A DNA stretch of 64,000 nt from contig JAKFVH010000247.1 of the NCBI GenBank assembly GCA_021732285.1, positions 1 through 64,000 on the forward strand, read 5' to 3'. Both the position numbers and the translations under genes were made by a program. Position 1 is the first letter of the stretch. Every line of letters starts with the position of its first letter. This document shows, piece after piece, positions 6,477-40,604 of this stretch. Below the pieces are notes generated by a model that worked only from the letters and a program-made list of their open reading frames with translations, ran no database searches and was not told where the DNA came from. Source of the DNA: Reyranella sp. (GTDB lineage Bacteria > Pseudomonadota > Alphaproteobacteria > Reyranellales > Reyranellaceae).

Positions 6477-6493
6477 GGGGAGCTATATTTCCG

Positions 6494-7088: not shown

Positions 7089-7294
7089 CGCCTTCAGCCA
7101 GTCTCGAACCGGCTCGTTGCCGGCGGCCGTGCAGTAAAAGACGAGAGGTATTTCGGCGTAGTCGAGTGGTCGGCCGGCACCAACGACTATGTACTATAAA
7201 AAGTGCCGGTAGGCAAAGCATCCCGCCCGACAGGCGGACGGCTGAGCCAATTCTTTGAAGACATTGGTCTTTGACGTGGCACGACCATTGCTTC

Positions 7295-7312
7295 AACTTG
7301 TTATGACAAGTT
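7295..7312. promoter_or_regulatory. Perfect palindrome, likely operator of the GntR regulator
   Basis: AACTTGT-TATG-ACAAGTT is an 18-base perfect inverted repeat that ends 11 bases before the gntR start codon. GntR/HutC proteins bind short palindromes of this size and usually regulate themselves. A TTGACG at 7271-7276 may be part of the promoter. Assignment of the site to this regulator is inference from position. Confidence 0.6.
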
Positions 7313-7323
7313 AGGACAAGGCA

Positions 7324-8079: not shown

Positions 8080-8824
8080 TCGTCGCATCGCGGCCACTGC
8101 GGTCTCCTTTGCCGCATTCATCGGCCTCTGGTGGGCGATCTCGGCGCTGGAGATCGTCAACCCGGTGTTCTTCCCGGCGCCGCCGCTCGTCTTTTCCGCC
8201 GCGCTGGAGATGCTGGAAGGCGGGGTGTTGTTCAGCGACCTGCAGGTGTCGCTCGGCCGGGCGGCCGTCGGCTTCGTGGCCGGCGTCGTTTTGGGACTCC
8301 TGACGGGCCTTCTCACCTCCCGGATTGCTTTCTTCAACCTGATGCTCAATCCGCTGCTGTCGCTCTGCCGGCCGATCCCCGCCATCGCGCTGGTGCCGGT
8401 CGCCATCGTCTGGTTCGGCATCGGCGAGACGTCGAAATACTTCGTCATCGGCTATTCGGTCTTCCTCACCGTCTGGCTGAACACGCACCACGGCATGTCG
8501 ATGGTGGCCGAGACCTACGTGCGCGCCTCGCGTTCGCTGGGCGCCAGCCGCTCGCGCGAGTTCGTCGAAGTCATCATTCCCGCCGCCTCGCCCTACATCA
8601 TGGCGGGCGTCCGCAGCGCCGCGGCCGTGGCCTTCCTCTGCCTGGTCGCCGCCGAACTGACCGGCGCCTCCGGCGGCATCGGCTACCGCCTGCAGGAGTC
8701 GCGCCAGTACATCCGGGTCGACCGCATGTTCGTCAGCCTGATCGAACTGGGGCTGCTCGGCGCGCTCCTGGACGCGATCTTCGTCGCCATCGGCCGGCGC
8801 GTCATCCATTGGGAGCAGATGTGA
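8072..8824 (+). CDS. ABC transporter permease, SsuC/TauC/ThiX type
   Basis: A 250-residue inner-membrane permease with about six hydrophobic segments. The EAA loop that docks on the ATPase is visible at about residues 150-175 (ASRSLGASRSREF, then IIPAASPYIMAGVR). The family moves sulfonates, taurine, nitrate or pyrimidine precursors. It is coupled to the gntR stop upstream and to the ATPase gene by a TGATG junction downstream. Neighbouring nucleoside-type enzymes point to a base- or nucleoside-like substrate; that is inference. Confidence 0.9.
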   Translation: MLSRRIAATAVSFAAFIGLWWAISALEIVNPVFFPAPPLVFSAALEMLEGGVLFSDLQVSLGRAAVGFVAGVVLGLLTGLLTSRIAFFNLMLNPLLSLCRPIPAIALVPVAIVWFGIGETSKYFVIGYSVFLTVWLNTHHGMSMVAETYVRASRSLGASRSREFVEVIIPAASPYIMAGVRSAAAVAFLCLVAAELTGASGGIGYRLQESRQYIRVDRMFVSLIELGLLGALLDAIFVAIGRRVIHWEQM

Positions 8825-9609
8825 TGGACGTGGCCACCGTCGTCGACATCGGCCGCGTCGAGGTCGCGCGCGCGACGGTCGAGTTCAAGGGCGTCCAGGG
8901 CAAGACCGTCACCGCGCTCGCGCCCACCGAGCTCGAGCTCACTCCGGGTTCCTTCACCGCGCTGGTCGGCCCCTCGGGCTGCGGCAAGTCCACCCTGCTC
9001 AACCTGATCGCGGGCTTCCTCGAGCCGACCGAAGGCGCCGTCAGGCTCGACGGCAAGGAGATCACCGGCCCCGTCCCCGACGTCGGCATCGTGTTCCAGC
9101 AGTACGCGTTGTTCCCGTGGTTCTCGGCGCTGGGCAACGTCGAGTTCGCCCTGAAGCGCCTGAGCCTCGGCAAACCGGAACGGCAGGCGCGGGCACTGGC
9201 CGCCCTCGCGGAGGTCGGTTTGGCCGGACGTGAGCGGCAGTATCCCGGCCAGCTGTCGGGCGGCATGAAGCAGCGCGTTGCCCTGGCTAGAATCTTCGCG
9301 GCGGCGCCCAAGGTGCTGCTGATGGACGAGCCCTTCGGCGCGCTCGATGCCATCACGCGCGCGAGCATGCACCGCCTGCTGCTCGACATCTGGACCCGCC
9401 ATAGGACGACGGTGCTGTTCGTCACCCACGACATCGACGAGGCGCTGCTTCTCGCCGACCGGGTGCATGTCATGTCGCGAGGGCCGGGCCGCATCGTCGA
9501 GACGCTCGACGTCACCGATCCCCGGCCGCGTACCGTCGAGACCCGCTCGCCGCAGGTCAGCGCCGCCCGCGCGCAGATTCTGGAACTTCTGCTTTCGTCC
9601 GACCACTAA
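8824..9609 (+). CDS. ABC transporter ATP-binding protein, SsuB/TauB type
   Basis: A 261-residue ATPase with Walker A GPSGCGKST (about residues 50-58), Q-loop FQQYALFPWFS, signature LSGGMKQR, Walker B VLLMDEPFGALD and switch histidine FVTHDIDEA. The PWFSALGNVEFAL segment after the Q-loop is typical of taurine/nitrate/sulfonate importers. The start ATG overlaps the permease stop. It energises the permease at 8072 and receives substrate from the binding protein encoded next. Confidence 0.93.
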   Translation: MDVATVVDIGRVEVARATVEFKGVQGKTVTALAPTELELTPGSFTALVGPSGCGKSTLLNLIAGFLEPTEGAVRLDGKEITGPVPDVGIVFQQYALFPWFSALGNVEFALKRLSLGKPERQARALAALAEVGLAGRERQYPGQLSGGMKQRVALARIFAAAPKVLLMDEPFGALDAITRASMHRLLLDIWTRHRTTVLFVTHDIDEALLLADRVHVMSRGPGRIVETLDVTDPRPRTVETRSPQVSAARAQILELLLSSDH

Positions 9610-9624
9610 CGAAAAGGACTGATC

Positions 9625-10611
9625 ATGACGACCGACACTATTTCTCTTCTGTCCAGGCGCAATGCCCTCACCCTGCTGGGCTTGTCTTCGGCCGCCAGCT
9701 TCCTGCCGCGCCACGTCCTTGCCGCCGGCAGCGCCGTCCTTGCCTGGACGCCCGGCATGGGCACGCCGCAGATTTCCGTCGCCTTGAAGGACAAGCTCTG
9801 GGCGGCGGAGAATCTCGACATCAAGCCGGTGTCGTTCCCGACCGGACGCGAGGCGCTGGAAGCGCTATTGGGCGGCGGCGCCCAGTTCGCCTCGCTCGCC
9901 GAGTTCCCGGTCGTGACGGCGGCGCTGCGCGGCCAGAAGTTCGTCGTCCTGGCGGGCCTCTCGACGTATGTCGGCAATCGCATCGTCATCAACGCGGCGC
10001 GCGGCGCCAAGGACATTCAGTCGCTGGCCGGCCGCAAGGTCGGCGTGACGCTCGGCACCAACATGCAGTTCCTGGCGGACGCCGTGCTGAAGGGCATCAA
10101 GGTCGACTACGTCAATGTGGCACCAGGCGATCTGGTGCCGGCGCTGGCGCGCGGCGAGATCGATGCGGCCTTCATGTTCGATTCGTTCTATCCGCAGGCC
10201 AGGGCCGTGCTCGGCAAGAACTACGTCGAGGTGATGACGCCGCAGTACCAGGGCCAGATGGTGATCGTCGCGAGCCGCGACTACGCGCAGGCGAACCCGG
10301 CGGCGGTCAAGGCGTTCCTTGCGGGGCTCCTCAAGGCCGACACGAAGGTGGCGGCCGACAAGGCCGCGGCGATCGCGGCGGTGTCCGCCGCCACCGGCGG
10401 CGCGCTGTCGGCCGAGGCCATCGACGGCCAGTGGTCGAACTATCGCTTCCAGGTCGGCCTCAACAAGCAGCTCCTGCCGCTCTTGATGGATCAGGCAGCG
10501 TGGATCAACGCGACGGGCCTGATCAAGACGCCGGCCACCGAGGAGATGCTGCGCTCCTACATTGCCAAGGATGCGCTGGCGAGCCTGGCGCCGGATCGGG
10601 TGGCGCTGTGA
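9625..10611 (+). CDS. ABC substrate-binding protein, NMT1/SsuA-like, with Tat-like signal
   Basis: A 328-residue periplasmic receptor of the NMT1/THI5-like group. The N terminus carries SRRNALTLLGLSSAASFLP, a twin-arginine motif before a hydrophobic stretch, ending in LAAGS, so export through Tat is likely. The body shows the family pattern: VSFPTGREALEALLGGGAQFA, LAGRKVGVTLGTNMQFLAD and AFMFDSFYPQA. Relatives bind sulfonates, nitrate or formyl-aminopyrimidine. The stop overlaps the amidohydrolase start (GTGA). Confidence 0.88.
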   Translation: MTTDTISLLSRRNALTLLGLSSAASFLPRHVLAAGSAVLAWTPGMGTPQISVALKDKLWAAENLDIKPVSFPTGREALEALLGGGAQFASLAEFPVVTAALRGQKFVVLAGLSTYVGNRIVINAARGAKDIQSLAGRKVGVTLGTNMQFLADAVLKGIKVDYVNVAPGDLVPALARGEIDAAFMFDSFYPQARAVLGKNYVEVMTPQYQGQMVIVASRDYAQANPAAVKAFLAGLLKADTKVAADKAAAIAAVSAATGGALSAEAIDGQWSNYRFQVGLNKQLLPLLMDQAAWINATGLIKTPATEEMLRSYIAKDALASLAPDRVAL

Positions 10612-12011
10612 TCCGGCTGCCCGACCTCGGCAAGCTGGGCACATCCTACGCCCTGCACGTTGACGTGGTGATGACCCCGTCCGGTCCGCTGCGCGAGGCC
10701 GTCGTGCGCGTCGAGAACGGGCGCTTTGCCGAGGTCGCTGCCGCCGGCGCCTATGCCAACCCGGCCGTTCCCGCGCTGCGCGTCCGCGGCGGCGCGCTGG
10801 TGCCGGGCATGCTCGACATACACCACCACATCATCGAACCCTTCGCCAAGGCGCTGACCGGCGGCGAGCCGGCCCAGCTTTGGAAGCGTTTCTGGATGCC
10901 GCTCGAAGCGGCAGCCACGGTGCAGTCGGTCTATGCCGGCTCGAAGTGGACGTTCCTGGAAGCCCTGCGCGGCGGCATCACGACCATCGTCGACCACGGC
11001 ATCCGCGCGCGCGAGCTGACGGATGCCATCCATCGTGCGGCCAACGACACCGGCATCAGGCTGGTGTCCTCGACCGGCGCCTACGACCTCAAGAACTACG
11101 CCACCGCGGTGCGCACCCCAGATGCGTCGGCCAGCGTCGACGCCGGCATCAAGGCGGCGCTCGACCATGTCGATGACTGCAAGGCCTTCGACCGCATCTA
11201 TCCGTCGCTCGCCTGCGGCACGGTGCAGTCGAACTCCAAGGAGATGATCAAGGCCCTGGCCCGGTTCTGCCACGACGAGGACATCCTGTTCCAGATCCAC
11301 GCCAACGAGCACACGCTCGAGGTCCATGCCTGCATCGAGAACACCGGACGTCGCCCGATCGAGCTGCTGCACGACATCGGTGCGCTCGGTCGCCATACGT
11401 TGATCGCCCATGCGACGCTGGCGGCAAGCCACGAGATCCAGATGCTGAAGGAGACGGATACGGCGGTTGCCTACTGCCCGGTCGCCAGCATGTGGAAGGG
11501 CAACGCCGTGGCGCCGGTGCTCGACTTCTTCGCCAACGGCATCCGCGTCGGCCTCGGCTCGGATGCGACCCGCAACGACGGCTTCCGCATGCTCGATGCG
11601 GCGGAAGCGGCCCAGCGCATCGCCTACGGCATGCCGCGCGACGACTTCTCCTGCGGCGCCGGCTGGCGCTGGTTCGATGCCGCGACGCTGGGCGGCGCCA
11701 GCGTGGCGCTGCTCGATCGCGAGGTCGGGGCGGTCAAGCCGGGGTTGAAGGCGGACTTCCTGCTGCTCGACTGCACCGGGCCGGAGGTGCTGCCGTCGTG
11801 GGACTTCGCCTGGGAGCTGGTGCGCTTCTACGATCGCGCCGACATCGCCGCCACCTTCGTCGACGGCGAGCTGCTGATGCAGGGCGGCCGCGCCACGCGC
11901 TTCGACTCGGAAGCGTTCGTCGAAGAGGAGCTGGCGCCCGGCATCCAGGCGATCAAGGACGCCAACCTGTGGCGCCTGCACGGCGAGAGCGAGCTTCACC
12001 GCAAACGGTGA
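10608..12011 (+). CDS. Metal-dependent amidohydrolase / deaminase (TRZ/ATZ-like)
   Basis: A 467-residue cytosolic TIM-barrel hydrolase. The metal site is visible as DIHHHIIEP (residues about 73-81), a histidine in IHANEH, a histidine in LIAHATLAASHE and the aspartate in GLGSDATRND; a C-terminal composite domain ends the protein (KPGLKADFLLLD). This set fits the chlorohydrolase / S-adenosylhomocysteine deaminase branch, acting on aromatic heterocycles such as guanine, cytosine or triazines. The GTG start at 10608 overlaps the previous stop. Placement between an importer and a nucleoside hydrolase supports deamination of a nucleobase-like substrate, though the exact one cannot be read. Confidence 0.85.
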   Translation: MIRLPDLGKLGTSYALHVDVVMTPSGPLREAVVRVENGRFAEVAAAGAYANPAVPALRVRGGALVPGMLDIHHHIIEPFAKALTGGEPAQLWKRFWMPLEAAATVQSVYAGSKWTFLEALRGGITTIVDHGIRARELTDAIHRAANDTGIRLVSSTGAYDLKNYATAVRTPDASASVDAGIKAALDHVDDCKAFDRIYPSLACGTVQSNSKEMIKALARFCHDEDILFQIHANEHTLEVHACIENTGRRPIELLHDIGALGRHTLIAHATLAASHEIQMLKETDTAVAYCPVASMWKGNAVAPVLDFFANGIRVGLGSDATRNDGFRMLDAAEAAQRIAYGMPRDDFSCGAGWRWFDAATLGGASVALLDREVGAVKPGLKADFLLLDCTGPEVLPSWDFAWELVRFYDRADIAATFVDGELLMQGGRATRFDSEAFVEEELAPGIQAIKDANLWRLHGESELHRKR

Positions 12012-12025
12012 GACCAGGAGCCACG

Positions 12026-12976
12026 ATGGCCGACCCCTGCCGCATGATCCTCGACGTCGATACGGGGATCGACGACGCGCTTGCCATCCACCATGCCGTG
12101 CGTCGTCCCGATATCCGGCTCGAAGCCCTCACGACGGTCTACGGCAACACCGATGTCGCGATCGCCACGGACAATACGCTGAAGGTGCTCGAACTTTTGG
12201 GACGTCCCGACATTCCCGTGGCCAAGGGCGTCGGGCGATCGCTTCTAAAGCCGTTCAAGCGGGAAGTCGATCGCATCCATGGCTCCAACGGTCTCGGTGA
12301 CGTCGAGCTGCCGGCGCCGGCGGGCCGTCCGGTCGACGAGCACGCGATGGACCTCATCATCCGCCTGGTCAAGCAGGCGCCCGGCGAGATCACGATCTGC
12401 GGTGTCGGCCCTTTGACCAACCTGGCGCTCGCCCTCACCAAGGCGCCGGAAATCGCCACCCTGGCCAGGAAGATCGTGATCATCGGTTCGACGCTGTTCT
12501 GCCCGGGCATCCTCGGCGCGAAAAGCCCGATGGTCGACGCCAACATCAACAACGATCCCGAGGCGGCGCGCATCGTGCTGAACGCCGGGGCCGACCTCGT
12601 GCTGGTCGGCATGGACGTCACCCGCCAGGCGCTGCTCACCGACGACGACAGGCGCGAGATCGCGAGCAAGGGCGATGCCGCGGCGAAGACCCTGATGAAG
12701 ATCACGGAATTCTACGCCGCCGCCTACAAGCAGCGGCAACCTCATTTCGGTGGCTGTCCTTTGAGCGACCCGCTGGCGGTGGCGGTCTGCGCCGACCCCA
12801 GCCTCGTCACGACCGAGCGCATGTTTGCCGACGTCGAACTGCACGGCGAGCTGTCGCGCGGCCAGGTGATTCCCGATCGCCGGCACATCTCCCAGCACCT
12901 GTTCAACGCCGATGTGGCCATCGACGTGGACGCCAAGCGCTTCGTGTCGTCCTTCGTCAGGCTGATGGTGGGCTGA
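12026..12976 (+). CDS. Inosine/uridine-preferring nucleoside hydrolase family
   Basis: Hydrolyses the N-glycosidic bond of ribonucleosides to ribose and free base. The 316-residue product has the calcium-binding signature DVDTGIDDALAI (about residues 9-20), the CGVGPLTNLALAL block, MVDANINNDPEAA and a late SDPLAVAVCADP, all standard in this family. The canonical N-terminal motif is complete, so activity is expected. It begins 14 bases after the amidohydrolase with an AGGAG site. Its 3' end overlaps the convergent racemase-family gene by 20 bases. Confidence 0.92.
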   Translation: MADPCRMILDVDTGIDDALAIHHAVRRPDIRLEALTTVYGNTDVAIATDNTLKVLELLGRPDIPVAKGVGRSLLKPFKREVDRIHGSNGLGDVELPAPAGRPVDEHAMDLIIRLVKQAPGEITICGVGPLTNLALALTKAPEIATLARKIVIIGSTLFCPGILGAKSPMVDANINNDPEAARIVLNAGADLVLVGMDVTRQALLTDDDRREIASKGDAAAKTLMKITEFYAAAYKQRQPHFGGCPLSDPLAVAVCADPSLVTTERMFADVELHGELSRGQVIPDRRHISQHLFNADVAIDVDAKRFVSSFVRLMVG

Positions 12977-13631
12977 CCGCTGAAGCGAGCCTGTTCTTCA
13001 AGGCGGCGACTGCAGAAGCCGGACTGGTCAGCACGGGAATGCTTGTCTGGCCGCGCAGTCGCTGAGCCGCCGGCGCCATCGAGAACTGGGCGAGCATGAT
13101 CGCATCGCAGCCGGCGAGCTTGGCCGCCGCCTCGGCGACCAGAGCGTCGTGTTCCTCGCGCCGTCCGGCCTGCAGAGCCGCCATGGCTCGCGGGACGAGC
13201 ACGCTCTTTAGTTTCGCCGATGCACCAGCCCGGTCCGCTTGTTCCGCGAACTCCTCGGTCATGCTGGCAATCGAAGGCTCGAAGGTCGCCAGCATGCCGA
13301 TCGTGCCGCCGATGGAGATGGCCTCGGCAAACATCGCCTCGTTCGGCTTCAGGACCGGCATGCCGACGGACCGCGCCACGCGCTCGATGGCGGGGCCGAA
13401 GGCCGAGCAGGTGAACAGGATTGCCTCGGCGCCGAACGACACCGCGTAGCGGCCCAGCGCATCGAAGCGTCTGAAAATACCATCGGTCAGCTCCGGGGTG
13501 AGGGCGCGGTCGCGGCTCAACGAATCGTCGAGCAGGTTGACGAGGTCGGGTTCAGGCCATGCCTCGGCGAAGGCCGCCTTGATGGGATCGACGGCGGCGG
13601 GCGTGGCGTGGACGAGAGCGATGCGCGTCAT
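12957..13631 (-). CDS. Asp/Glu racemase superfamily protein
   Basis: A 224-residue protein with the two-half fold of Asp/Glu/hydantoin racemases and arylmalonate decarboxylases. The first catalytic cysteine is in ILFTCSAFGPA (about residue 74). The position of the second cysteine reads MLAQFSMAP, with no Cys, so a one-cysteine mechanism (decarboxylase- or isomerase-like) is more likely than racemisation. It is convergent with the nucleoside hydrolase and divergent from the idonate-type operon, from which it is separated by 172 bases. Its product could act on ureido acids from base breakdown; that is context-based inference. Confidence 0.78.
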   Translation of the reverse strand: MTRIALVHATPAAVDPIKAAFAEAWPEPDLVNLLDDSLSRDRALTPELTDGIFRRFDALGRYAVSFGAEAILFTCSAFGPAIERVARSVGMPVLKPNEAMFAEAISIGGTIGMLATFEPSIASMTEEFAEQADRAGASAKLKSVLVPRAMAALQAGRREEHDALVAEAAAKLAGCDAIMLAQFSMAPAAQRLRGQTSIPVLTSPASAVAALKNRLASAVSPPSA

Positions 13632-13712
13632 GCCTTTTAGGCAGCCCCCTTTCTGACCGCCTGCGCCACGATATCACCAAATGCAGCTGTCCTAAGGGGC
13701 CAGTCCGTCGGT

Positions 13713-13737
13713 CCGCCATAAGGATTCACTATGGCGG
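13713..13737. promoter_or_regulatory. Inverted repeat upstream of the idonate-type operon
   Basis: CCGCCATA and TATGGCGG enclose 9 bases in the gap between the divergent racemase-family gene and the SDR gene. It lies 66 bases upstream of the SDR start, a plausible place for an operator. No regulator gene is adjacent, so the binding protein is unknown. Confidence 0.45.
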
Positions 13738-13803
13738 TAGAACGAGATCGGTGAAGCGGTTATCGAGACATCGAACTAAGCTCCGTGCCGGATAGGGGGT
13801 CAT

Positions 13804-14568
13804 GTGGCATTCGAACTTTTTGATCTGACGGCCAAGCGCGCGATCGTTACAGGCTCCTCCCAGGGCATCGGATTTGCGATTGCACAGGGTCTGGCGGACC
13901 ACGGCGCCGAGGTTGTCCTGAACGGCCGCGACCGCGACAAACTCGCCGCGGCAGCGGCGAAAATCGCGGCCCGCGGCCACAAGGTCTCGACCTCCCGGTT
14001 CGACGTCACCTCAGCCGCCGCCGTCGCCGAAGGCGTCGCTGCCGTCGAAAAGACCGGCGCCATCGATATCCTGGTCAACAACGCCGGCATGCAGTTCCGC
14101 TCGCCGCTGGAAGACTTTCCGATCGAGCGCTGGGAGCAGCTGCTCGCTACGAACGTTTCCAGCGTCTTCTACGTGGCGCAAGCCGTCGCCCGGCACATGA
14201 TCAAGCGCGGCAGGGGCAAGATCATCAACATCGCTTCCGTGCAGAGCGAGCTGGCGCGCCCGAACATAGCGCCCTACACGGCGACCAAGGGCGCGGTTCG
14301 CAACCTGACCCGCGGCATGGCCACCGACTGGGCCAAGCACGGCCTGCAGATCAACGCCATCGCGCCGGGCTACTTCAAGACGCCGTTGAACCAGGCGCTG
14401 GTCGACGATCCGGAATTCTCCGCCTGGCTCGAGAAGCGCACCCCGGCCGGACGCTGGGGCAACGTCGACGAACTGATCGGTGCCGCGGTGTTCCTCGCCG
14501 GCAACGCCTCGTCCTTCGTCAACGGACACACGCTCTACGTCGATGGCGGCATCACGACCAGCCTGTAA
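13804..14568 (+). CDS. idnO: SDR dehydrogenase, gluconate 5-dehydrogenase (IdnO) type
   Basis: Short-chain dehydrogenase of 254 residues that probably reduces 5-ketogluconate to gluconate with NAD(P)H. Seen: nucleotide-binding GSSQGIGFAIAQG near residue 16, NNAG near residue 93, catalytic Ser in IASVQSE and Y-x-x-x-K in PYTATKGAV, and the closing LYVDGGI. The GTG at 13804 with a GGGGG site is preferred; the overlapping ATG at 13802 is out of frame. It is the first gene of a three-gene plus-strand operon with a hydroxyacid dehydrogenase and an IdnD-like enzyme, the pairing that supports IdnO over a generic SDR. Confidence 0.8.
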   Translation: MAFELFDLTAKRAIVTGSSQGIGFAIAQGLADHGAEVVLNGRDRDKLAAAAAKIAARGHKVSTSRFDVTSAAAVAEGVAAVEKTGAIDILVNNAGMQFRSPLEDFPIERWEQLLATNVSSVFYVAQAVARHMIKRGRGKIINIASVQSELARPNIAPYTATKGAVRNLTRGMATDWAKHGLQINAIAPGYFKTPLNQALVDDPEFSAWLEKRTPAGRWGNVDELIGAAVFLAGNASSFVNGHTLYVDGGITTSL

Positions 14569-30837: not shown

Positions 30838-31635
30838 CTAAAAGAGTGAGTGAAAAGCGCGAAGGAGGCCGAATAGCAGCACGACCGCCGCTACTGCGCT
30901 GTACATCCAATGCTCCTTCATCACTTCGACTATTGCCGCCGGATGCAGGCCGTATCGCTCACGCCAAGAGGTATCGGTCATCAGTGTGTTGCTTGAGGCC
31001 AGCTGTGCAATATGAGATAGCACGTCCACTTTCCGCAGAGTCGACTGGTGCAATTTTACGTACTCACCGTTTTCAAAAGCGGCCGCTTCAAGTTCTCCCG
31101 ATAAGAAGTCTCGGGCAGTAATGTTGTTCTTCTCGACCAACTTTTCGAGGCGCGGATGCCCTATGTATGTATCTCCATAGATCTCGAAAAGTTCGCGGGC
31201 GAGATCGAATTTCTTTGAGTCGTCCACGCTATGAGGCGTGCCACCCAAAATGGTGTAGCGGTGCGCAAGCGCTTGAAACCCGTACTTTATGTTGCGCATG
31301 TTCCAGTGCAGCCACACAAAGTTGGAATGTGTATGCACAAAATCAAAAAAGCCTTTCAGCATACGACGCTCAAGATCGTCGTAGTGAGAGGTAATCTCCG
31401 CTGGAGCGATATGTTGTTGTTCGGCGACCTTGTGAATCGAGAATGATTCTGTCTGGGCAGAACCAAGATTCCGTATCGCTATCGACGTTACACGCGGAGT
31501 TCGCCCATCGTCGCGATCGTAGAAGCTTTCACATGAATAATGCACAACAAGCACATGTTGGCGGTCGCGCCACAACGCGGCCAGCTTATTATTGGCCGCC
31601 TTGCGGCTCTTCAGTCTCTCAAGGGCTTGGCCCAT
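30838..31635 (-). CDS. Tail-anchored protein of unknown function in the low-GC island
   Basis: A 265-residue protein that I cannot place in a family. The soluble part starts with a basic helix and a strand HVLVVHYSCESFYDRDDG, followed by RVTSIAIRNLGSAQTESFSIH, a central WLHWNMRNIKYGFQALAHRY and late GHPRLEKLVEKNNITARDFL. Acidic and aromatic residues in the first strand could suit an RNase H-like fold; this is a guess. The C terminus (residues about 244-262, MYSAVAAVVLLFGLLRAF) is a single hydrophobic segment with a few polar residues after it, so the protein is probably anchored in the inner membrane by its tail. It is divergent from the helicase gene, with 250 bases between, and has the same low GC. 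Confidence 0.62.
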   Translation of the reverse strand: MGQALERLKSRKAANNKLAALWRDRQHVLVVHYSCESFYDRDDGRTPRVTSIAIRNLGSAQTESFSIHKVAEQQHIAPAEITSHYDDLERRMLKGFFDFVHTHSNFVWLHWNMRNIKYGFQALAHRYTILGGTPHSVDDSKKFDLARELFEIYGDTYIGHPRLEKLVEKNNITARDFLSGELEAAAFENGEYVKLHQSTLRKVDVLSHIAQLASSNTLMTDTSWRERYGLHPAAIVEVMKEHWMYSAVAAVVLLFGLLRAFHSLF

Positions 31636-31885: not shown

Positions 31886-34800
31886 ATGAGCTTTGGCAAT
31901 CTGAACAACATCCTATCGTTCGTTGAAGAGGCAATCCTCAAAGACCAAAAGGTAATCCGAAGACTGTCGGACTACTCAGCGTCGATTGCCTACCACGAGG
32001 CTGAGGTTCGTGAACTCGTTAACGTCCGATTCAATGAGATCGTTGATGGTGCGCCTGCATGGTTGCAGGTCTCGCGGGTGACGAAAACCAAACCACCCAC
32101 GTTTCCCATATCTACTGGGACGCAGATTGATGCAGGTGAGATCGCTGTTTCCTCCGACTGGGTAGCGGTACAGGACGACCCCACCGCCACGCCCACACTA
32201 AGGACATCAATCCGACGGGCATTATCTTCCGGTCAAATTCAGAAACTGATTAGTGATGGCAAGCTCAAGCGCGAGAATGTCTACAAGGACGCCGCGGACT
32301 CCAATCGAACCATTGCGGTTCTGCTTCGGGAGGACTTCGAACAGGTCGAGAATCTTTTCAACGCGTGGCTTGATGGAGCATGGCTTCCTTGGTCGGAGCG
32401 AGAGAAGCCGATTAGGCGCGCAGCGAGCTTTTACGAGGAACTCTTCCGAATACACACTGCTATCACGGGACGTGACCTGCCGGTTGAGATCGTCCTGGGT
32501 GTTGGCGTCGTTCGTGGGGTGCTTGCGAATCATGCGGTTGACCATCCGCTCGTCGAGTATGGCGTCTATCTTCAAGTTGTTTCGACAACCGGTGACATAC
32601 TGGTACGGCCAAAGCCACGGTCACCAGAGCTGTTCGAATTTGAGACTGATACCCTTTCAGGTGACGGTTCTGCTCTGAGGCGAGAGGCGCAGACCCATTG
32701 GGCCGGGCTACCGGATCATGTCGAGGCTTCTCCTTTTGACAGGCACCACTTTGAAACGGTCCTTCGTTCGGCAGCAGTCTTCTTGAAGGCGGGTGGTAGC
32801 TATGTAGATGCCGGACCGACTCGCCAAATCAAAGCGGGAGACGGCGGGCTCGTCGTAAACGACACCTGGGTATTGTTTACACGACCGGTATCGGCAAAGC
32901 CGATGATCAACGACATTCGAAATCTTAAGGACGCTCTGCGCGATGCCACGAATGTCGATCCCTTGCTCGTTCTCCTAGACGATCCGAAAGCGGCTGAAGG
33001 CCTTACCTCTGTTATGCCGGACCGCGTTACGGAAATGCTCAGGCAGGCGTTCGGGGATGCAGCTAGTCGCAGTCAAACTACCGGGGCCCGAAGTCATGCT
33101 GACGGCCACCAAGTTCAGGTTTCCGAAATCGTGGCTCCCTACTTCCCTCGGGTTAGCAACGCTGAACAGGAACGGATCATCAAGATCTTGGAGCAACCCG
33201 AGTCAAAGGGCTTAGTGGTTCAAGGGCCGCCAGGGACGGGTAAGAGTCATTCCATTGCGAACATCATCTGCCATGGCCTGTCGCGAGGTTGGCGCATCTT
33301 GGTTACCGCGCATAGTGATGGCCCCTTGCAAGTTCTCCGCAACATGTTGCCGGAAGGTGTGCGCGATCTAGCAGTGAACCTTTCGACTGGCGAGCAGTCG
33401 GAGGTGCTGCAACTAGAAACCTCGGTCAAGGCGATTTCGGCCATACCGGCACGTGTTGGTGATCGCTCGGTCTGCATCGCGCTGATCGAAGAACTGGAAC
33501 AACGCATACTCACGAACAGGCGGCGCGTTGGTGAGATTCAGAAGGAAACGCTTGAGTGGGCCAGGACGAACCTTGAACGCAAGGCAACCTACGCAGGGAA
33601 CCTGTCTGCAAGTGAATTGGCGGCGAAGATCATCCAGAGCCGTGAGGCTCATCAGTGGCTCCCAGATACGATCGCCTTTGAGCATGCGACACCCCCGCTC
33701 AAAGAGGAGGAGGTTGCACGTCTCCGCAATCTTAGAGCACAGGTCGGTGCACTACTTGTTGCCAGGAACTGGTCGTTACCAGAACTTACTGCTGTCGTGT
33801 CGTCCGGTGAGTTGGCCAAGATTCATGCTGCTCTTCGACAGTACGAGGAGCTGGGCAGCGAAGTAGCCGACAGCGGCGTCCCGCATTTGGCAGGGGTAGA
33901 GAACGGTCGCCTGCTAGCCGAGGAATTGCTTCAGTCGTTGGAACGGCTTGAAGAGCATTTGGCGGGCATCGCGGGTATTGAGTGGATAGACAAGTACGTT
34001 GCCGATCTGCAGAAGCCAGCCCATGAAGACAAGCTGCTTTCGCAGTCTGTCAAAGAACTTACCCGACTGTTCGAAGCGGTGATCAAGGAAGAGGCCAAGT
34101 TCGTCCTGAATCAGGTCCGGACACCGCCGTTGGACGGACCAGACGTCACGAAACATTTGGCAGCAGCAGCACTGAGCGGACGCCCATATAAAGATCTGCT
34201 GTTCTTCCGACCCTCCGAAGATGTCATAGCCGCGCTTAGCCTCGTTCAAGTGCGGGGTAACATACCCGAAAGCAAGGACGATTGGGCATTGGTGCGAGAA
34301 TGCTTTGCGTGGCGACGTGAAATCGTGCGTCTAGTCCATCGGTGGAATGCAGTCGCCGCCTCATTCGAACTGGGCCATGCCCCCACAGAAGACGCCTCGG
34401 CGCTCAAGTGGATGAAGAGAAGCCACACGGCGGCCGGTAGGGCAGACGCGCTGGTATTCAAAGTTTGGCCAGATGTGACTCAGCGAGCCCAAGCTATCGA
34501 TCGCAAGGGATTGGGTGTGGCAAATATCAACTTGGGTCAAATAGCGACGGCCCAGCCTGCGGCGTGGTTGGAAGACATCACGGAGGCGCTAAGGTCCCGA
34601 GTCGCTCAAGTAGATGTAGCATGGGCTCGCGAAAAGCTCGCCGAGGTGCGCAGCAGAGTTCGCTTTTACAGTTCGCCGACGATCGCGAGAATGAACGAGC
34701 TCTTGGGAGTGCTGGGCCAAGAAGGCTGTAACATCGAAGTCTTATCTGCGGAATGGGACGCTCTGCGCGAAAAACTGATCGCTGAAGCCGCCACAAGATC

Positions 34801-36994
34801 GCAGGTCGAGCAGATAGATGATCTTGCGGATAAGATTGAGAATGCAGGTGCGCCGAAGTGGGCCGCTCAGATTCGTAACGTACCGAATGAGCTGGGGGCG
34901 GGCGGATCGTTTGACAATTCCGACCCGGTTGTTCCTGCCAATTGGCAGGACTCGTGGCACTGGAGCGTATGGAACGCTCATCTGCAGAAGAGCAGTTCCT
35001 TCCAGAAGCTGAAATCCGTGATGGAGGAGCGGGCAAGACTTGAGGCAGAGATTCGCACCGTCATGAATGACGTGGTTCGACTGAGGACCGAACTGCAACT
35101 ATCGCGCATGCCACAGAACGTGCTGAATTTGCTTCAGCAGTTCCAAACTGCGATTAGCCGGATTGGCGCGGGTACGGGCGTCCGAGCGAACCGCTATCGG
35201 CGACAAGCTCAGTCATTGTCACAACAATGCGCGTCCGCAGTACCCTGCTGGATCATGCCGATTCAGAAGGTGTCTGAGACGCAGCCGTCACAGCTCGGCA
35301 TTTTCGACCTAGTCATCTTGGATGAAGCATCTCAGTGCGGCCCGGAAGCCATCATTGCGATGATGCGGGCCAAGAAGGCGCTAATCGTGGGCGACGACAA
35401 GCAGGTCATGCCCACTACATTCCTTTCCGAGGAGTACTACAGAACACTTAAGGCGAAGTATCTCGATGGAACCAGCTACGAGGCCGTCTTGGCTCCGGGC
35501 ACCTCCTTCTACGATCTCGCCAGGGCAATGTTTGCCGGTCAGAACGTGATGCTGCGCGAACACTTTCGGTGTGTTGAACCGATCATCCGCTTCTCGATGC
35601 AATTCTATGGTGACGGGCAACAGAATAGTTCACTCGTCCCTCTCAAAGTTCCGAAGGCATCGGAGCGCCTCGATCCACCGCTTGTCGACGTATACGTACC
35701 GCACGGGTATGCCTTGCGGCAAACCAACCAAGCTGAAGCAGAGGTTATCGTAAAGGAGATCGAACGCATTACCTCAGATGCGACCTATGACAAGAAGACC
35801 ATCGGCGTCATCTCTCTTAGTGGTAGCGAGCAGCCGCAATTGATCGAGCGCCTCTTGCAGGAGCGTGTAGGAACCAGCGCCTTTGCTAAGCATGAGATCG
35901 TGGTTTCGGATAGCGCCGGTCTACAGGGCAAGGAGCGATCGATAGTCTTTCTAAGCATGGTCGATGCGCTCAACCGAAGGTCGGCTGCCCGAACGCAGGC
36001 TCTATATGAGCAGCGTTACAACGTAGCTTTGAGCAGGGCCAAAGACCGCATGTACCTCGTTCGATCGTTGAAGCTCGAGGAGCTGCCAAACCACAATGAT
36101 TTGAGGCGCCGAGCCATTCTGCACTTTGCTGATCCGATGCCACAGGGCGTGCGGCCTGCCGCTGATAAAGAAAGCATTACGGAGCAAGGACAAAGCGGCT
36201 TTGAGAAGCAAGTGCTGAAGCGGTTGCTCGATCTTGACTACCATGTCACCCCACAGGTGCCTGCTGCCGGGTTCTTCATCGACATTGTCGTTGAGGGGAT
36301 GGGAGACCGGCGCTTGGCGGTGGAGTTGGATGGTGATCCGTGGCACCCGCCGTCGCAGTACGCTGCAGACTTGGCGCGTCAGCAGGCGCTTGAGCGCATT
36401 GGGTTCAGATTTTGGCGCTGCTGGTGGTCCGACTGGATTATGGACCCAGATGCGTGCTTTTCCGACCTCATCAAGGAACTGACGGCTCTTGGTGTAGAGC
36501 CGAGACGCGGCGAGGCGCTTAAGCCGCACTTCTTTGTATCGCACCTGGTGGCAGATCGAGACGGCTCGCTGCTGACGATGGAGGAGTATGAGGAAAAGAT
36601 GCGCGAGCCAACCTCGAGAGTGGAGGACGATGCCGAAACGGTCGAGACAGAGGTCGCAGGCACCCAGCTAACGATTCTTTCGCCACCGAGAGCCGGAAGT
36701 GGGCAGCAAGGAGTAGGACGCTATGCTCGTATCGCCAACAAGAAAGTCGGCCTTGTTGAGGAAGGTGACTTGCTGATTGTTGAAAGCAGCGGTGCGCCGT
36801 CATTGAACTTGGATGGCAAGCGGACTTTCGAAGTCCGCCCCGGCGAGGCCGAAGACCTTGAGCGGGGCTTTATTGGTATCGAGAGCCCTTTGTGCAAGCA
36901 ACTCGCAGACTTGGCAGTTGATGATGCGGTCAGTTTTTCACACAAGGGCTTTGAAGTGACTATCATCATAGTGGGAGTACACAAGAGACAGTAA
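31886..36994 (+). CDS. Large SF1 helicase - Vsr-like nuclease - Gre-like domain fusion protein
   Basis: A 1702-residue multidomain protein. Helicase core (AAA_11/AAA_12, Upf1-like SF1): Walker A GPPGTGKSHS at residues 447-456, a long inserted helical region (about 520-1090), Walker B LVILDEAS at about 1142-1149, GDDKQV at 1169-1174, REHFRC and, in motif VI, YNVALSRAKDR at 1378-1388. A Vsr/MTES_1575-like PD-(D/E)xK nuclease follows: FFIDIVV with Asp 1466 and VELDGDPWH with Glu 1480 and Asp 1482, then RFWRCWWSD. The last 80 residues resemble the C-terminal domain of transcript-cleavage factors GreA/GreB (GFIGIESPLCKQLADLAVDD, FEVTIIIVGV). Residues 1-440 are unassigned. The combination suggests recognition and cutting of foreign nucleic acid, perhaps linked to RNA polymerase. 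A TTG at 31859 with a strong AGGAG site would add 9 residues. Confidence 0.85.
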   Translation: MSFGNLNNILSFVEEAILKDQKVIRRLSDYSASIAYHEAEVRELVNVRFNEIVDGAPAWLQVSRVTKTKPPTFPISTGTQIDAGEIAVSSDWVAVQDDPTATPTLRTSIRRALSSGQIQKLISDGKLKRENVYKDAADSNRTIAVLLREDFEQVENLFNAWLDGAWLPWSEREKPIRRAASFYEELFRIHTAITGRDLPVEIVLGVGVVRGVLANHAVDHPLVEYGVYLQVVSTTGDILVRPKPRSPELFEFETDTLSGDGSALRREAQTHWAGLPDHVEASPFDRHHFETVLRSAAVFLKAGGSYVDAGPTRQIKAGDGGLVVNDTWVLFTRPVSAKPMINDIRNLKDALRDATNVDPLLVLLDDPKAAEGLTSVMPDRVTEMLRQAFGDAASRSQTTGARSHADGHQVQVSEIVAPYFPRVSNAEQERIIKILEQPESKGLVVQGPPGTGKSHSIANIICHGLSRGWRILVTAHSDGPLQVLRNMLPEGVRDLAVNLSTGEQSEVLQLETSVKAISAIPARVGDRSVCIALIEELEQRILTNRRRVGEIQKETLEWARTNLERKATYAGNLSASELAAKIIQSREAHQWLPDTIAFEHATPPLKEEEVARLRNLRAQVGALLVARNWSLPELTAVVSSGELAKIHAALRQYEELGSEVADSGVPHLAGVENGRLLAEELLQSLERLEEHLAGIAGIEWIDKYVADLQKPAHEDKLLSQSVKELTRLFEAVIKEEAKFVLNQVRTPPLDGPDVTKHLAAAALSGRPYKDLLFFRPSEDVIAALSLVQVRGNIPESKDDWALVRECFAWRREIVRLVHRWNAVAASFELGHAPTEDASALKWMKRSHTAAGRADALVFKVWPDVTQRAQAIDRKGLGVANINLGQIATAQPAAWLEDITEALRSRVAQVDVAWAREKLAEVRSRVRFYSSPTIARMNELLGVLGQEGCNIEVLSAEWDALREKLIAEAATRSQVEQIDDLADKIENAGAPKWAAQIRNVPNELGAGGSFDNSDPVVPANWQDSWHWSVWNAHLQKSSSFQKLKSVMEERARLEAEIRTVMNDVVRLRTELQLSRMPQNVLNLLQQFQTAISRIGAGTGVRANRYRRQAQSLSQQCASAVPCWIMPIQKVSETQPSQLGIFDLVILDEASQCGPEAIIAMMRAKKALIVGDDKQVMPTTFLSEEYYRTLKAKYLDGTSYEAVLAPGTSFYDLARAMFAGQNVMLREHFRCVEPIIRFSMQFYGDGQQNSSLVPLKVPKASERLDPPLVDVYVPHGYALRQTNQAEAEVIVKEIERITSDATYDKKTIGVISLSGSEQPQLIERLLQERVGTSAFAKHEIVVSDSAGLQGKERSIVFLSMVDALNRRSAARTQALYEQRYNVALSRAKDRMYLVRSLKLEELPNHNDLRRRAILHFADPMPQGVRPAADKESITEQGQSGFEKQVLKRLLDLDYHVTPQVPAAGFFIDIVVEGMGDRRLAVELDGDPWHPPSQYAADLARQQALERIGFRFWRCWWSDWIMDPDACFSDLIKELTALGVEPRRGEALKPHFFVSHLVADRDGSLLTMEEYEEKMREPTSRVEDDAETVETEVAGTQLTILSPPRAGSGQQGVGRYARIANKKVGLVEEGDLLIVESSGAPSLNLDGKRTFEVRPGEAEDLERGFIGIESPLCKQLADLAVDDAVSFSHKGFEVTIIIVGVHKRQ

Positions 36995-37038
36995 GACCCT
37001 GTGGCGGCGCACGGCGGCGCGACAAGATGGAGAACGCA

Positions 37039-38868
37039 ATGGACATTCTACCTTGGGTCCTGTTTGCAGGTGTCGCAGTCGCTCTAGTGCTTCTTGTTGC
37101 GTTTTTTCTTGTCTCCAAGAAACCCAACGCCGCTTCAGACAGCGTCGGGCAGGACGTACGTGATCTAAGAACAGTACTTGACCGCCTTGAGCGGAGCATC
37201 AGTGACAATGACGCACGAAGCTTCAACAGTGCGGAAGAGAGAGCGAAGGCGCTGCGAGAGGAAGTCTCTCTCCAGCTCTCACGCAGTACCGAAACACTGA
37301 CGAAAAGCTTGGGGGCTGTCGGCGACGCTCAGGGGGCACAATTAGAGGCATTCTCTGGCGCTTTGGTAAACCTGTCTAATACACTCATAGGGAAGGTGGA
37401 CTCCGCTCAGGAGGCCAGCGCACTACAAGCCAAAGGCCTTAGAGAGGAAGTTCAGACGACCCTAAAGACAGTCGGCGACGATCTGCGACAGAACGCGGAA
37501 GCGGCATCCGGGACTCAAAAGGAGAGATTGGAGCAAGTCTCTGCAAAGCTCACCGAACTGGGCGATGGCATCGCCAAGGGCTTCTCTGAGTTTCGCTCAG
37601 GTACGGAGACCAAACTTGGAGAGATGAGCAAGAACGCCACCGATGCCGCTGCCCTTTTGCGCGAGGAAGTGGCAAATAGCTTAAAGAAGGTGGGTGACGA
37701 TCTTCGTGAGAACGCCAAGTTAATGGCAGAAGAACAACGAAATAATCTCAACGCGATGGTTGAAAGAATTGGAGAAATCGGAAAGTCGTCCCATGAGAGC
37801 CAAGAAAGACTTCGGGAGAGTGTCGCGGAAGGCCTTGCGAATCTTCGACAGGAGAATGAAACAAAGCTTGAAGCCATTCGAGTGACTGTCGACGAGAAGC
37901 TTCAAGGTACTTTAGAGAAAAGGCTGGGCGAATCCTTCAAGCTCGTATCAGAGCAGCTCATGTCCGTGCATCAAGGCCTCGGCGACATGCAGAAGTTAGC
38001 TACAGGAGTGGGCGACCTGAAACGGGTTCTTACCAATGTGAAGAGCCGGGGAACGTGGGGTGAAACGCAACTTGCGGGGTTGCTGGAAGACATGCTTGCA
38101 CCCGGGCAATACGAGAAAAACGTCAAGACAAAGGAGGATAGTGGCGAAACAGTAGAATTCTGCGTGAAGATCCCAGTGGTTGACGAAACGCAAGACCACA
38201 TCCTGCTGCCCGTCGACGCGAAGTTTCCAATTGAAGACTACGAGCGCCTGCTGGAGGCTGGGGAGATTGGGGATAGTGCTGCAGTGGAGCAAGCGAGGCA
38301 GCGCCTAGAAACGCGGTTTCGCAATTCCGCACAGGATATTGCAAGGAAGTACATCTCGCCACCGCGTACCACTGAGTACGCAATCCTTTATGTGCCATCG
38401 GAAGGTCTCTACGCCGAAATGGCGAGGAGGCCCGGGCTTTCAGCAAGCCTAACACGCGACTTCAATGTCGTAGTTGCCGGTCCAATAAACCTGATGGCAA
38501 TCCTGAACGCCATACAAGCTGTTACAAAGTCGGTGACCATCCAACAAAAGGCGGGCGAGATCGCCACTCTCCTCGTGCGCGTACAGAGTGAATTCGTGAA
38601 GTATGGCGACGCAGTGGATGCAGCCCGGCGGAAAGCGCAAGGCGTCGTGACAGCTATTGATAAGTTGGGCACCAGGCAGCGAGCGATCGGTCGGGTCCTT
38701 AGGAACGTTAAGGCGGTAGAAGGAGCCGTGCTCAACGCTCAGTTACCTGTTCTCGAACTAGAAGCGGAGGGAAATGACGAGGTGGAAAGCGCCACTGAAG
38801 TCAGCGATGAAGAGGAGGAGCAGGCTGCTGCGCGCGACGACGCGGAGGCCGCGCCTGAGTCACTTTGA
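37039..38868 (+). CDS. rmuC: RmuC-family DNA recombination/nuclease-like protein
   Basis: A 609-residue protein. Residues about 4-24 (PWVLFAGVAVALVLLVAFFL) form a membrane anchor; residues about 40-320 are repetitive coiled coil (for example EERAKALREEVSLQLSRS and related AREEV-type repeats); the C-terminal half is the RmuC domain, starting at RGTWGETQLAGLLEDMLAPG (about 336-355), with VEFCVKIPVV and LPVDAKFPIEDYERLL, whose D-x-K is the predicted PD-(D/E)xK-like catalytic motif (Asp 393, Lys 395). RmuC limits inversions and certain recombination events. It lies 44 bases after the helicase fusion gene in the same low-GC DNA, so it is probably a dedicated partner and not the housekeeping copy. 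ATG 37039 has GGAG six bases upstream; ATG 37027 is less likely. Confidence 0.9.
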   Translation: MDILPWVLFAGVAVALVLLVAFFLVSKKPNAASDSVGQDVRDLRTVLDRLERSISDNDARSFNSAEERAKALREEVSLQLSRSTETLTKSLGAVGDAQGAQLEAFSGALVNLSNTLIGKVDSAQEASALQAKGLREEVQTTLKTVGDDLRQNAEAASGTQKERLEQVSAKLTELGDGIAKGFSEFRSGTETKLGEMSKNATDAAALLREEVANSLKKVGDDLRENAKLMAEEQRNNLNAMVERIGEIGKSSHESQERLRESVAEGLANLRQENETKLEAIRVTVDEKLQGTLEKRLGESFKLVSEQLMSVHQGLGDMQKLATGVGDLKRVLTNVKSRGTWGETQLAGLLEDMLAPGQYEKNVKTKEDSGETVEFCVKIPVVDETQDHILLPVDAKFPIEDYERLLEAGEIGDSAAVEQARQRLETRFRNSAQDIARKYISPPRTTEYAILYVPSEGLYAEMARRPGLSASLTRDFNVVVAGPINLMAILNAIQAVTKSVTIQQKAGEIATLLVRVQSEFVKYGDAVDAARRKAQGVVTAIDKLGTRQRAIGRVLRNVKAVEGAVLNAQLPVLELEAEGNDEVESATEVSDEEEEQAAARDDAEAAPESL

Positions 38869-38919: not shown

Positions 38920-39513
38920 ATGGATCAGACATACAACCTAAACGGTGGTTTCAAACCGACGCTGAAGCGGTTTGCTGATCTCGCCGGGCCTGATTTCTTC
39001 CCCACGCCTAGGTGGGCCACGTTTGCTCTGATCGACAACGAGAAATTTTCCGGCGACATTTGGGAAAGCGCTTGCGGTGACGGCGCAATGTCTCGGGTAC
39101 TCGAGCAAACAGGCCGATCGGTATTTAGTTCCGACCTTCACAATCGGGGCTACGGGGAAAGCGGTCGTGATTTTCTCACGTGGTCGCGCAAGGCCGACAA
39201 CATCATCACCAATCCGCCCTACAATAGCGCCGAGGGGTTTGCGGCAGCGGGCGTAAAGAACGCCTCGCGCAAATTTGCCTTGCTGCTGCGCCTAGCGTTT
39301 CTAGAGGGCGCAAACCGCGCCAATACGATATTCGCCAAGTCGCCGCCCGCCCGCGTCTGGGTGTTCAGTGAGCGCATTACGTTTTATCCGAGCGGCGTGG
39401 AGCCAAAGGGGACAGGAACCACTGCGTATGCATGGTTCATTTGGGACAAGGATGCTCCAACGCGAACGGAATTGCGCTGGTTCAAGCCCGGCTACAAAAA
39501 GCGCTACGGATAG
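38920..39513 (+). CDS. Orphan phage-type DNA methyltransferase (NPPY)
   Basis: A 197-residue SAM-dependent methyltransferase. The cofactor motif is ESACGDGAMSRVLEQTG (about residues 49-65) and the catalytic motif is NPPY at 98-101 (IITNPPYNS), the signature of N6-adenine or N4-cytosine methylation of DNA. Size and order (motif I before IV, no recognisable target-recognition domain) match small methylases of phages and integrated elements. No restriction partner is annotated next to it, so it may protect the host from the neighbouring nuclease, or be a mobile-element orphan. It starts 51 bases after rmuC and ends in a 10-base convergent overlap with the next gene. Confidence 0.82.
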   Translation: MDQTYNLNGGFKPTLKRFADLAGPDFFPTPRWATFALIDNEKFSGDIWESACGDGAMSRVLEQTGRSVFSSDLHNRGYGESGRDFLTWSRKADNIITNPPYNSAEGFAAAGVKNASRKFALLLRLAFLEGANRANTIFAKSPPARVWVFSERITFYPSGVEPKGTGTTAYAWFIWDKDAPTRTELRWFKPGYKKRYG

Positions 39514-39836
39514 AGCCCTTTCTCTTTGAGAAGAGCCAATCCCTTTTCAGTGACCTTGATGCCGTCGTCAGTCCGCTCTGCCAGTCCTCGCTTAAAGATA
39601 CTGGTTGAGGAAGGGCTATGAGAAATCACGTTGCCCATGATCTGTTGCCAGTGTTCTTCCCGTGCCCTGGTGGCAGACCGTTTGAGATCGTCCGCCGTTA
39701 GCTCTCGCCATTGAGGAAGCTGGTCCTTGATCTGCGTGGTGCTCGCTTGATGTCCTGGCATCGACGCCGCAATCGCTAGTGCAAGTAGCCGAGCCTCAGG
39801 CTCTCGTAGCCTTCCTTTGGCAACAATTTTTTCCAT
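39504..39836 (-). CDS. Small winged-helix-like protein (Mrr N-terminal-like)
   Basis: A 110-residue protein. The pattern QQIMGNVISHS, FKRGLAERTDDGIKVTEKGL resembles the winged-helix domain found at the N terminus of Mrr and some HNH nucleases (V/I-x-N-x-x-S-H, then G-L...G-x-x-x-T-x-x-G). Here it is free-standing with no nuclease attached. Start chosen at ATG 39836 because GGAGAGG lies 7 bases upstream; an ATG 24 bases earlier lacks such a site. Its end overlaps the convergent methyltransferase gene. It could be a DNA-binding regulator of the island. The 294 bases to the next gene hold no ORF that I can support. Confidence 0.6.
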   Translation of the reverse strand: MEKIVAKGRLREPEARLLALAIAASMPGHQASTTQIKDQLPQWRELTADDLKRSATRAREEHWQQIMGNVISHSPSSTSIFKRGLAERTDDGIKVTEKGLALLKEKGLYP

Positions 39837-40130
39837 GTGTGTTCCTCTCCGGTAATACAACCATAGGAGAAGAGCACTGGAAATGCGAGTCGCCTTAGTG
39901 TCCGAGGCCGAATAGTGAGAGCCGACTACTTTCTAAATTCGCTAAGTTGTTGCCGGCGGCACCTGGGCAACGCAAAGCGGCGTGAGATGACGGCAATGCC
40001 GGCACTCCGCCGGCATCGCGTAGACGGACACACTACTGATTGTGTCGGCGTCGACCTCTATGCGGTGCGAAAGAATTATCTGGCGCAACACGGTACTTGA
40101 TTCGCGAGAGCACTATAGTTATATTCAGTT

Positions 40131-40604
40131 ATGCCCACGGCCGGTCAGCCAACGCTCTACAAGCCCGACTACTGCGCGCAGGCCCACAACTATTGCCTGT
40201 TGGGCGCGACCAACGAGGATCTGGCCGGCTTCTTCGACGTTACTCGGCGCACCATCGACAACTGGATCGCTGCCCATCCCGAGTTCGCCGATGCGGTGCG
40301 GTCCGGCCGCACCATCGCCGACATGCGTGTGGCGCGCTGTCTCTACGAGCGCGCTGTCGGCTGGCAGCAGACGGTCGAGCGCACGGTGCTGCATCAGGGG
40401 AAGGAGATGGTCCTGAAGGGCGTCGTGAATCATCCGCCTGACACCCGCGCCTGCATCTTCTGGCTACGCAACCGTCGGCGTGAAAGCTGGGGCGATCGTG
40501 TCCCGGCGTCGGGCGATCACTCGGAGGATCTGATCGCCGAGCTCGACGCCGCCGGCGAACGCGCACGACGGGAGCGTGCCCGGCCGTCGAACGACGCCGT
40601 GTGA
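40131..40604 (+). CDS. Phage terminase small subunit-like HTH protein
   Basis: A 157-residue protein. Residues about 10-60 (YKPDYCAQAHNYCLLGATNE, DLAGFFDVTRRTIDNWIAAH) give the helix-turn-helix found in terminase small subunits, which bind the packaging site of phage DNA; then IADMRVARCLYERAVGW, a conserved block in this group, and a basic C-terminal part. No large terminase, portal or capsid gene is near, so it is a remnant, a cargo gene, or a regulator derived from one. Codon use is already GC-rich, like the chromosome. Contains a 12-base repeat also found at the left edge of the island. Confidence 0.7.
   Translation: MPTAGQPTLYKPDYCAQAHNYCLLGATNEDLAGFFDVTRRTIDNWIAAHPEFADAVRSGRTIADMRVARCLYERAVGWQQTVERTVLHQGKEMVLKGVVNHPPDTRACIFWLRNRRRESWGDRVPASGDHSEDLIAELDAAGERARRERARPSNDAV

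Follow-up and report, generated by a model that had tools for sequence, protein, structure and literature searches.

A likely defence helicase-nuclease carrying a GreA/GreB-type C-terminal domain in a low-G+C island of Reyranella sp.

How helicase-nuclease defences distinguish foreign DNA from their own is a central open question. Among the closest described systems, the MTES_1575 architecture combines HEPN, transglutaminase, SF-I helicase and Vsr REase domains with two wHTH domains (PMC3710099). A second comparison is offered by the CoCoNuT systems, the description of which makes no mention of GreA (PMC11090510), and a third by Shield, reported only in Pseudomonas, in which RmuC is a proven defence nuclease (PMC10270631). 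A connection with transcription is found in other proteins: Kaur et al. (2021) proposed GreA/B-C as an RNA-polymerase-docking module in unrelated TPR-PIN counter-invader proteins (PMC8195603), and HelD reaches into the secondary channel of RNA polymerase (PMC7749165). The globular domain of GreA itself contacts the beta-prime rim helices of the polymerase, and the E. coli GreA substitutions S121P and S124L result in the loss of RNA polymerase binding and of antipause activity, respectively (PMC7527559).

Here, a stretch of 64,000 nucleotides from Reyranella sp. (contig JAKFVH010000247.1, positions 1 to 64,000), hereafter designated as the window, was analysed around a single large open frame. 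Its product associates a helicase motor, a Vsr-like nuclease and a GreA/GreB-type C-terminal domain, with the following layout:

31886..36994, + strand: SF1 helicase - Vsr-like nuclease - GreA/B-C fusion protein, 1702 aa (open frame; Pfam, PADLOC and NCBIfam scans)
31886..33193, + strand: N-terminal region, residues 1-436, alpha+beta, conserved in the family (AlphaFold2, pLDDT 83)
33224..33247, + strand: Walker A GPPGTGKS, residues 447-454 (G447-K453 invariant in an 8-member alignment)
35321..35404, + strand: Walker B DEAS (1146-1149) and motif III GDDKQ (1169-1173), invariant except for residues 1148 and 1171 (8-member alignment)
36200..36481, + strand: Vsr-like PD-(D/E)xK nuclease, residues 1439-1532 (Pfam PF18741, MTES_1575, E=1.5e-26)
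36752..36991, + strand: GreA/GreB C-terminal domain, residues about 1623-1702 (Pfam, profile searches, AlphaFold2, Foldseek)

An alternative TTG start at 31859, preceded by a good ribosome site, is possible and would make the product 9 aa longer. The motifs and the MTES_1575 match fall where the original prediction had placed an SF1 core followed by a Vsr-like nuclease. Judged by its sequence, the motor is an SF1 helicase of the Upf1/AAA_11-12 type, with Pfam matches to AAA_11 (1.1e-16) and AAA_12 (2.8e-14), and its closest solved sequences are Sen1, Upf1 and SMUBP-2. In the nuclease, E1440, D1466, E1480 and D1482 do not vary across the alignment of eight family members; since this also applies to the ATPase motifs, both the helicase motor and the Vsr-like nuclease of the window protein look intact.

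The N-terminal region, in which the original prediction had recognised no match over about 440 residues, gave a confident AlphaFold2 model, built on a 44-row alignment from which five rows from plasmid records were left out. Three of its residues (P71, E201 and R333) are invariant across the family. Foldseek searches with this model returned no convincing match in the PDB (best E 0.09) and none below E=0.07 in BFVD; that this region has no convincing relative among solved or viral structures is thus in line with the earlier reading. Weak MarR-like rows were obtained with VIA-align for residues 70-178 (Z about 3.4). Because the model exceeds 400 residues, a size at which the aligner may overlook single domains, no new fold is claimed.

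The identity of the C-terminal domain was approached by both sequence and structure. With the whole protein as query, the Pfam match of the window tail to GreA_GreB is sub-threshold (residues 1654-1698, E=0.011), and it remains so when the tail is scanned alone (E 2.1e-4, 21.6 bits, the curated Pfam cut-off for this family being 26.9 bits). The tail of L007, a protein of the same genus that is 37% identical and has the same architecture, reaches 34.3 bits. This protein is one of nine same-architecture relatives over the cut-off, together with L020, L095, L098, L051, L117, L139, L140 and L142; L043 (26.1 bits) and L141 (25.2 bits) are narrowly under it. A Gre-tail profile trained without the window sequence scored the window tail at 23.9 bits, whereas 5000 shuffles reached 9.2 bits at most and the other tail types of the family 7 bits at most. 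When a profile of seven tails was searched against the PDB, it matched E. coli GreA (3e-8), Rnk (1e-6), Nitrosomonas GreA/GreB, Gfh1 and GreB, and all convincing matches were Gre, Gfh1 or Rnk proteins. A profile covering the nuclease and the tail also picks up a host's own canonical GreA gene.

Structure prediction of this C-terminal part, suggested at the outset as a check, gave a model that matches the Gre fold (AlphaFold2 pLDDT 81, alignment of seven tails). The top 14 Foldseek matches of this model are GreA, Gfh1, GreB and Rnk, all RNA polymerase binders, with FKBPs appearing at E about 0.4; VIA-align Z scores are middling, at about 7.5 for Gre proteins and about 6 for FKBPs (rows 13 onward). 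FKBP-like folds are often put to use in other contacts between proteins, and the domain could be an FKBP-type module for protein-protein contact or oligomerisation, with no link to RNA polymerase, on an otherwise ordinary helicase-nuclease of the PDC-S37/Hhe kind. The FKBP-like fold, the weak Pfam score of the window tail and the finding that 58 of the 70 family members compared lack the domain are all compatible with such a module, which we nevertheless consider unlikely given the Foldseek ranking and the exclusively Gre, Gfh1 or Rnk nature of the convincing profile matches. The fold alone does not choose between Gre and FKBP, but sequence and predicted fold taken together decide for Gre. The assignment of the window C-terminus as a genuine GreA/B-C domain, as first proposed, is therefore well supported by the nine relatives passing Pfam, the PDB profile matches and the Foldseek results.

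The Gre tails have retained some features of Gre factors and lost others. They are strongly diverged from host GreA, and the window tail is the most degenerate among them, the Gly at the end of the A-L-[IL]-G helix being gone. Their best conserved portion is the S-P-(L/I) segment, thought to touch RNA polymerase, with the P kept in 11 of the 12 tails. The GreA positions S121 and S124 fall within the longer I-S-x-x-S-P-(I/L) segment, which in the window protein reads I-G-I-E-S-P-L, its E-S-P-L portion aligning with S124-P125 of E. coli GreA. In GreB, the corresponding residues, D121 and P123, have been linked to binding of the polymerase. What the protein lacks is the coiled coil of Gre factors and the acidic tip that goes with it, as no N-terminal Gre domain was detected in the Pfam scan of the window protein, and a low-complexity linker lies between the nuclease and the Gre domain.

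The reading that we favour, and to which we give about an even chance, is that of a helicase-nuclease directed against invaders and docked to RNA polymerase, acting as a single protein or possibly as a two-gene system with the RmuC protein encoded next to it (see below). The Gre domain would bind where Gre factors do, on the beta-prime rim helices at the entrance to the secondary channel. Because the coiled coil is absent, no stimulation of transcript cleavage is expected, and the domain would serve as a tether. Docking would take place where incoming DNA carries an RNA polymerase that has stalled, backtracked or been taken over; the motor would then load onto the exposed single strand of a bubble or R-loop, and the Vsr-like nuclease would nick or degrade the incoming DNA under transcription. 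An attack of this kind would fall preferentially on templates that are heavily transcribed or stalled, early phage DNA being an example. The suggestion made in the original prediction, of a protein that may watch transcription or R-loops and cut invading DNA, is plausible. In a guard or bait scheme, there would be no tether: the Gre domain would act as a decoy that imitates the host's secondary-channel factor, and phage proteins targeting RNA polymerase or Gre would bind it and so trigger the helicase-nuclease. The position of the swappable end at the C-terminus, resembling the sensor ends of many defence proteins, and the divergence of the tails from host GreA would both suit a decoy. However, the putative polymerase-touching segment is precisely what is best kept, which a decoy leaves unexplained unless phage proteins bind the same surface, and we regard this scheme as distinctly improbable.

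Relatives of the window protein were gathered from genomes, plasmids and viral contigs. The single window protein used as query found no matches in the genome and viral collections, whereas an alignment query did find relatives; the reference phage collection returned no match to the Gre-tailed nuclease-plus-tail query. Among 76 genomes searched in the same order, only one other (G409) was found to have a relative, with 37% identity, which argues against a housekeeping gene at a fixed position and agrees with the original prediction. The full Gre-tailed form occurs in five of 299 genomes in the order of the Roseomonas-labelled genome G817, and across the family Gre tails were found in 12 of the 70 members compared, from three phyla. 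In a tree of the 70 helicase-nuclease cores, nine Gre-tailed rows fall in one well supported group that also holds three rows without a Gre tail, and three further Gre-tailed proteins (L098, L043 and L051) are placed outside it. The starred branches of this tree force at least five gains or losses of the Gre tail, with the reservation that the tree was built by a quick method and that long-branch placements, such as that of L043, are unsure.

The clearest case of exchange is provided by L098 and L099, which are 81% identical over residues 1-1486, beyond which similarity ends abruptly, L098 continuing into a Gre domain and L099 into a different, unrelated tail. With a 70% identical core, L033 stops without any tail, and the C-terminus of L011 is made of DUF3320/Mrr_N-like winged helices. 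Because the closely similar cores of L098 and L099 end in unrelated tails, the C-terminal slot is, on the evidence of these alignments, an exchangeable module on a constant helicase-nuclease. The Gre domain, optional and missing from most members, is therefore not essential to the core reaction. As relatives hold other modules in the same slot, the C-terminal module most likely sets the site of action of the shared helicase-nuclease. The recurrent fusion of this helicase-nuclease to a Gre part that grips RNA polymerase offers a concrete candidate for recognition of foreign DNA through transcription. A broader proposal, namely a class of immune helicase-nucleases tethered to host RNA polymerase and attacking transcribed DNA, with GreA/B-C as a recurrent, swappable address tag, is tentative, and we would place it somewhat below even.

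Other occupants of the slot were observed along the way. A recurrent, unassigned 'WVIGG' C-terminal domain (VIDKRxxGGxLWVIGGxEL ... NGSRxTxxKPxWY) fills it in L031, L032, L036, L038, L050, L054 and L096, mostly Bacillota members, and no Pfam match was found when the tails of L036 and L096 were scanned. Another family member (L144, 167-571, - strand) has a topoisomerase-type zinc ribbon in its tail (PF01396, 3.2e-11).

The surroundings of the relatives include several defence genes. Among the Gre-tailed members, L140 adjoins DrmA/DrmB and Hsp70, L141 a UvrD-type helicase with a PD-(D/E)xK partner resembling AddAB, L139 a serine recombinase and RmrA, and L098 a D12 methyltransferase, the contig of L098 also bearing what looks by eye like a phage tail-sheath gene. 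Elsewhere in the family, L013 adjoins brxC/brxL (BREX), L118 Wadjet-like genes and L011 R-M genes, and members are also found on plasmids, mobile elements and phage-like contigs. L020 and L139, which are 94% identical, come from different genomes with a recombinase common to both. This distribution is the pattern of mobile defence genes. A defence role of the Gre-tailed helicase-nuclease is likely from its neighbourhood and homology. A role in host repair instead of defence, with transcription-replication conflicts or R-loops as the structures to be removed, would account for the proximity of the motor to Sen1, Upf1 and SMUBP-2, since Upf1/Senataxin-type SF1 helicases act on R-loops and Gre factors work at stalled polymerase. 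We hold this to be very unlikely in view of the patchy presence of the gene, its association with plasmids, with elements that carry a serine recombinase, with phage-like contigs and with neighbouring defence genes, and the anti-phage nature of the nearest models (PDC-S37, Hhe and ProA). As a separate observation, the L140 locus (5518-14000) carries DrmA/DrmB, an Hsp70-like protein and an 863-aa protein beside the Gre-tailed member, an arrangement that is possibly an unusual DISARM.

In the window, the helicase-nuclease gene lies in an island of about 9 kb (about 30.8-39.9 kb) with a G+C content of 55%, against about 67% in the surrounding region. Its neighbours are:

30838..31635, - strand: divergent phage-like protein phrog_8766 (PHROG 1.2e-71), with a C-terminal membrane helix read from the sequence
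37027..38868, + strand: RmuC-family protein, 613 aa (Pfam RmuC 2e-63), 33 bp after the helicase stop
38920..39513, + strand: phage DNA methyltransferase, second half only (phrog_799 positions 211-386 of 458; PHROG 3.2e-58)
39504..39860, - strand: small ORF at the right edge of the low-GC island, with no family above cut-off (Pfam, NCBIfam, PHROG)
40131..40604: terminase small subunit gene, flanking the island

In the related genomes G428 and G399, about 40 and 51 kb separate the left flank from the right one, so that the island occupies a variable spot, and the helicase-nuclease gene is missing from nearly all congeners. A portion of the terminase gene is found again at another place in the same genome (74% identity) and in congeners; the site may therefore be a prophage remnant or a hotspot. 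The phrog_8766 protein has no PDB relative by sequence and resembles the exonuclease of DNA polymerase B only very weakly (E=0.096).

The RmuC protein is composed of an N-terminal membrane helix (read from the sequence), a long coiled coil and a PD-(D/E)xK RmuC domain. Since a second RmuC gene exists elsewhere in the genome, the island copy is probably not the housekeeping one. Together with the 33 bp separating the two genes, this raises the possibility of a two-gene unit in which the helicase-nuclease works with an adjacent membrane-anchored coiled-coil RmuC nuclease, a Shield-like arrangement that would be compatible with tethering to RNA polymerase. Besides the proven role of RmuC in Shield (PMC10270631), the L012 relative on a Variovorax plasmid is also followed by a coiled-coil/RmuC gene. 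Yet no RmuC gene was seen close to the other Gre-tailed members that were inspected, and hardly any member of the family has one in its vicinity, with one further distant hit (L084), and we view the two-gene unit as doubtful; RmuC as an obligate partner was rejected for the same absence near Gre-tailed loci. The Variovorax gene (L012, 13099-14543) lies 0.6 kb after the family member and is truncated, beside IS3.

In a comparison with known systems, the best PADLOC model for the window protein is PDC-S37 (1.3e-56), followed by Hhe. PDC-S37 is also the best PADLOC match of five relatives (190-230 bits with the window protein included), over the helicase and the Vsr-like nuclease; the match is partial, the best stretch of the window protein covering 881-1352 of 1550 model positions with no cut-off given, and PDC-S37 is a candidate single-gene defence model only, which names no Gre domain. 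The comparison with Hhe made in the original prediction stands for one half: both have an SF1 helicase followed by an MTES_1575 Vsr-like nuclease. However, DUF4011 (Pfam matches up to E=0.1) and the DUF3320 winged helices of Hhe are absent from the window protein, which scores 178.1 bits against a curated NCBIfam cut-off of 2000 for Hhe (NF042953), and identity with Hhe was rejected. ProA (NCBIfam NF058533) matches residues 436-1546, that is the helicase and the nuclease, with 199.3 bits where the cut-off is 1500; the open literature searched yielded no paper describing ProA. Type III-B CoCoNuT CnuH-Vsr also has a helicase fused directly to a Vsr-like nuclease (PMC11090510), but no McrB-type GTPase or coiled-coil partners of that kind were seen at the window locus, the neighbours of which are RmuC and phage-like genes. 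The island RmuC protein, from a genome outside Pseudomonas, resembles Shield ShdA, a membrane-anchored RmuC-domain protein in a defence island, at the level of layout, RmuC domain and island context.

A search of the open literature, with most subscription journals outside its reach and hence of little weight as evidence of novelty, found no description of a helicase-Vsr-GreA/B-C fusion. The Gre-tailed form thus appears undescribed in the open literature searched, while Gre domains in conflict systems had already been proposed. In the TPR - GreA/B-C - PIN conflict systems, GreA/B-C was likewise proposed as an RNA-polymerase-association module (PMC8195603); in contrast to these, the window protein has its Gre domain after a helicase-Vsr core and shows no TPR, PIN or N-terminal variable effector, bearing in mind that TPR and PIN evolve rapidly and could be missed by Pfam. 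With GreA, GreB, Gfh1 and Rnk, it shares the C-terminal domain by profile and fold, but GreA and GreB have an N-terminal coiled coil with an acidic tip, and the window protein is predicted to be no transcript-cleavage factor. HelD is also an SF1-type NTPase acting on RNA polymerase via a Gre-like element, but it does so with a coiled-coil arm, lacks a nuclease and serves to recycle the host polymerase (PMC7749165). The helicase-Vsr core of the window protein is, by comparison, of a known, PDC-S37/Hhe-like kind.
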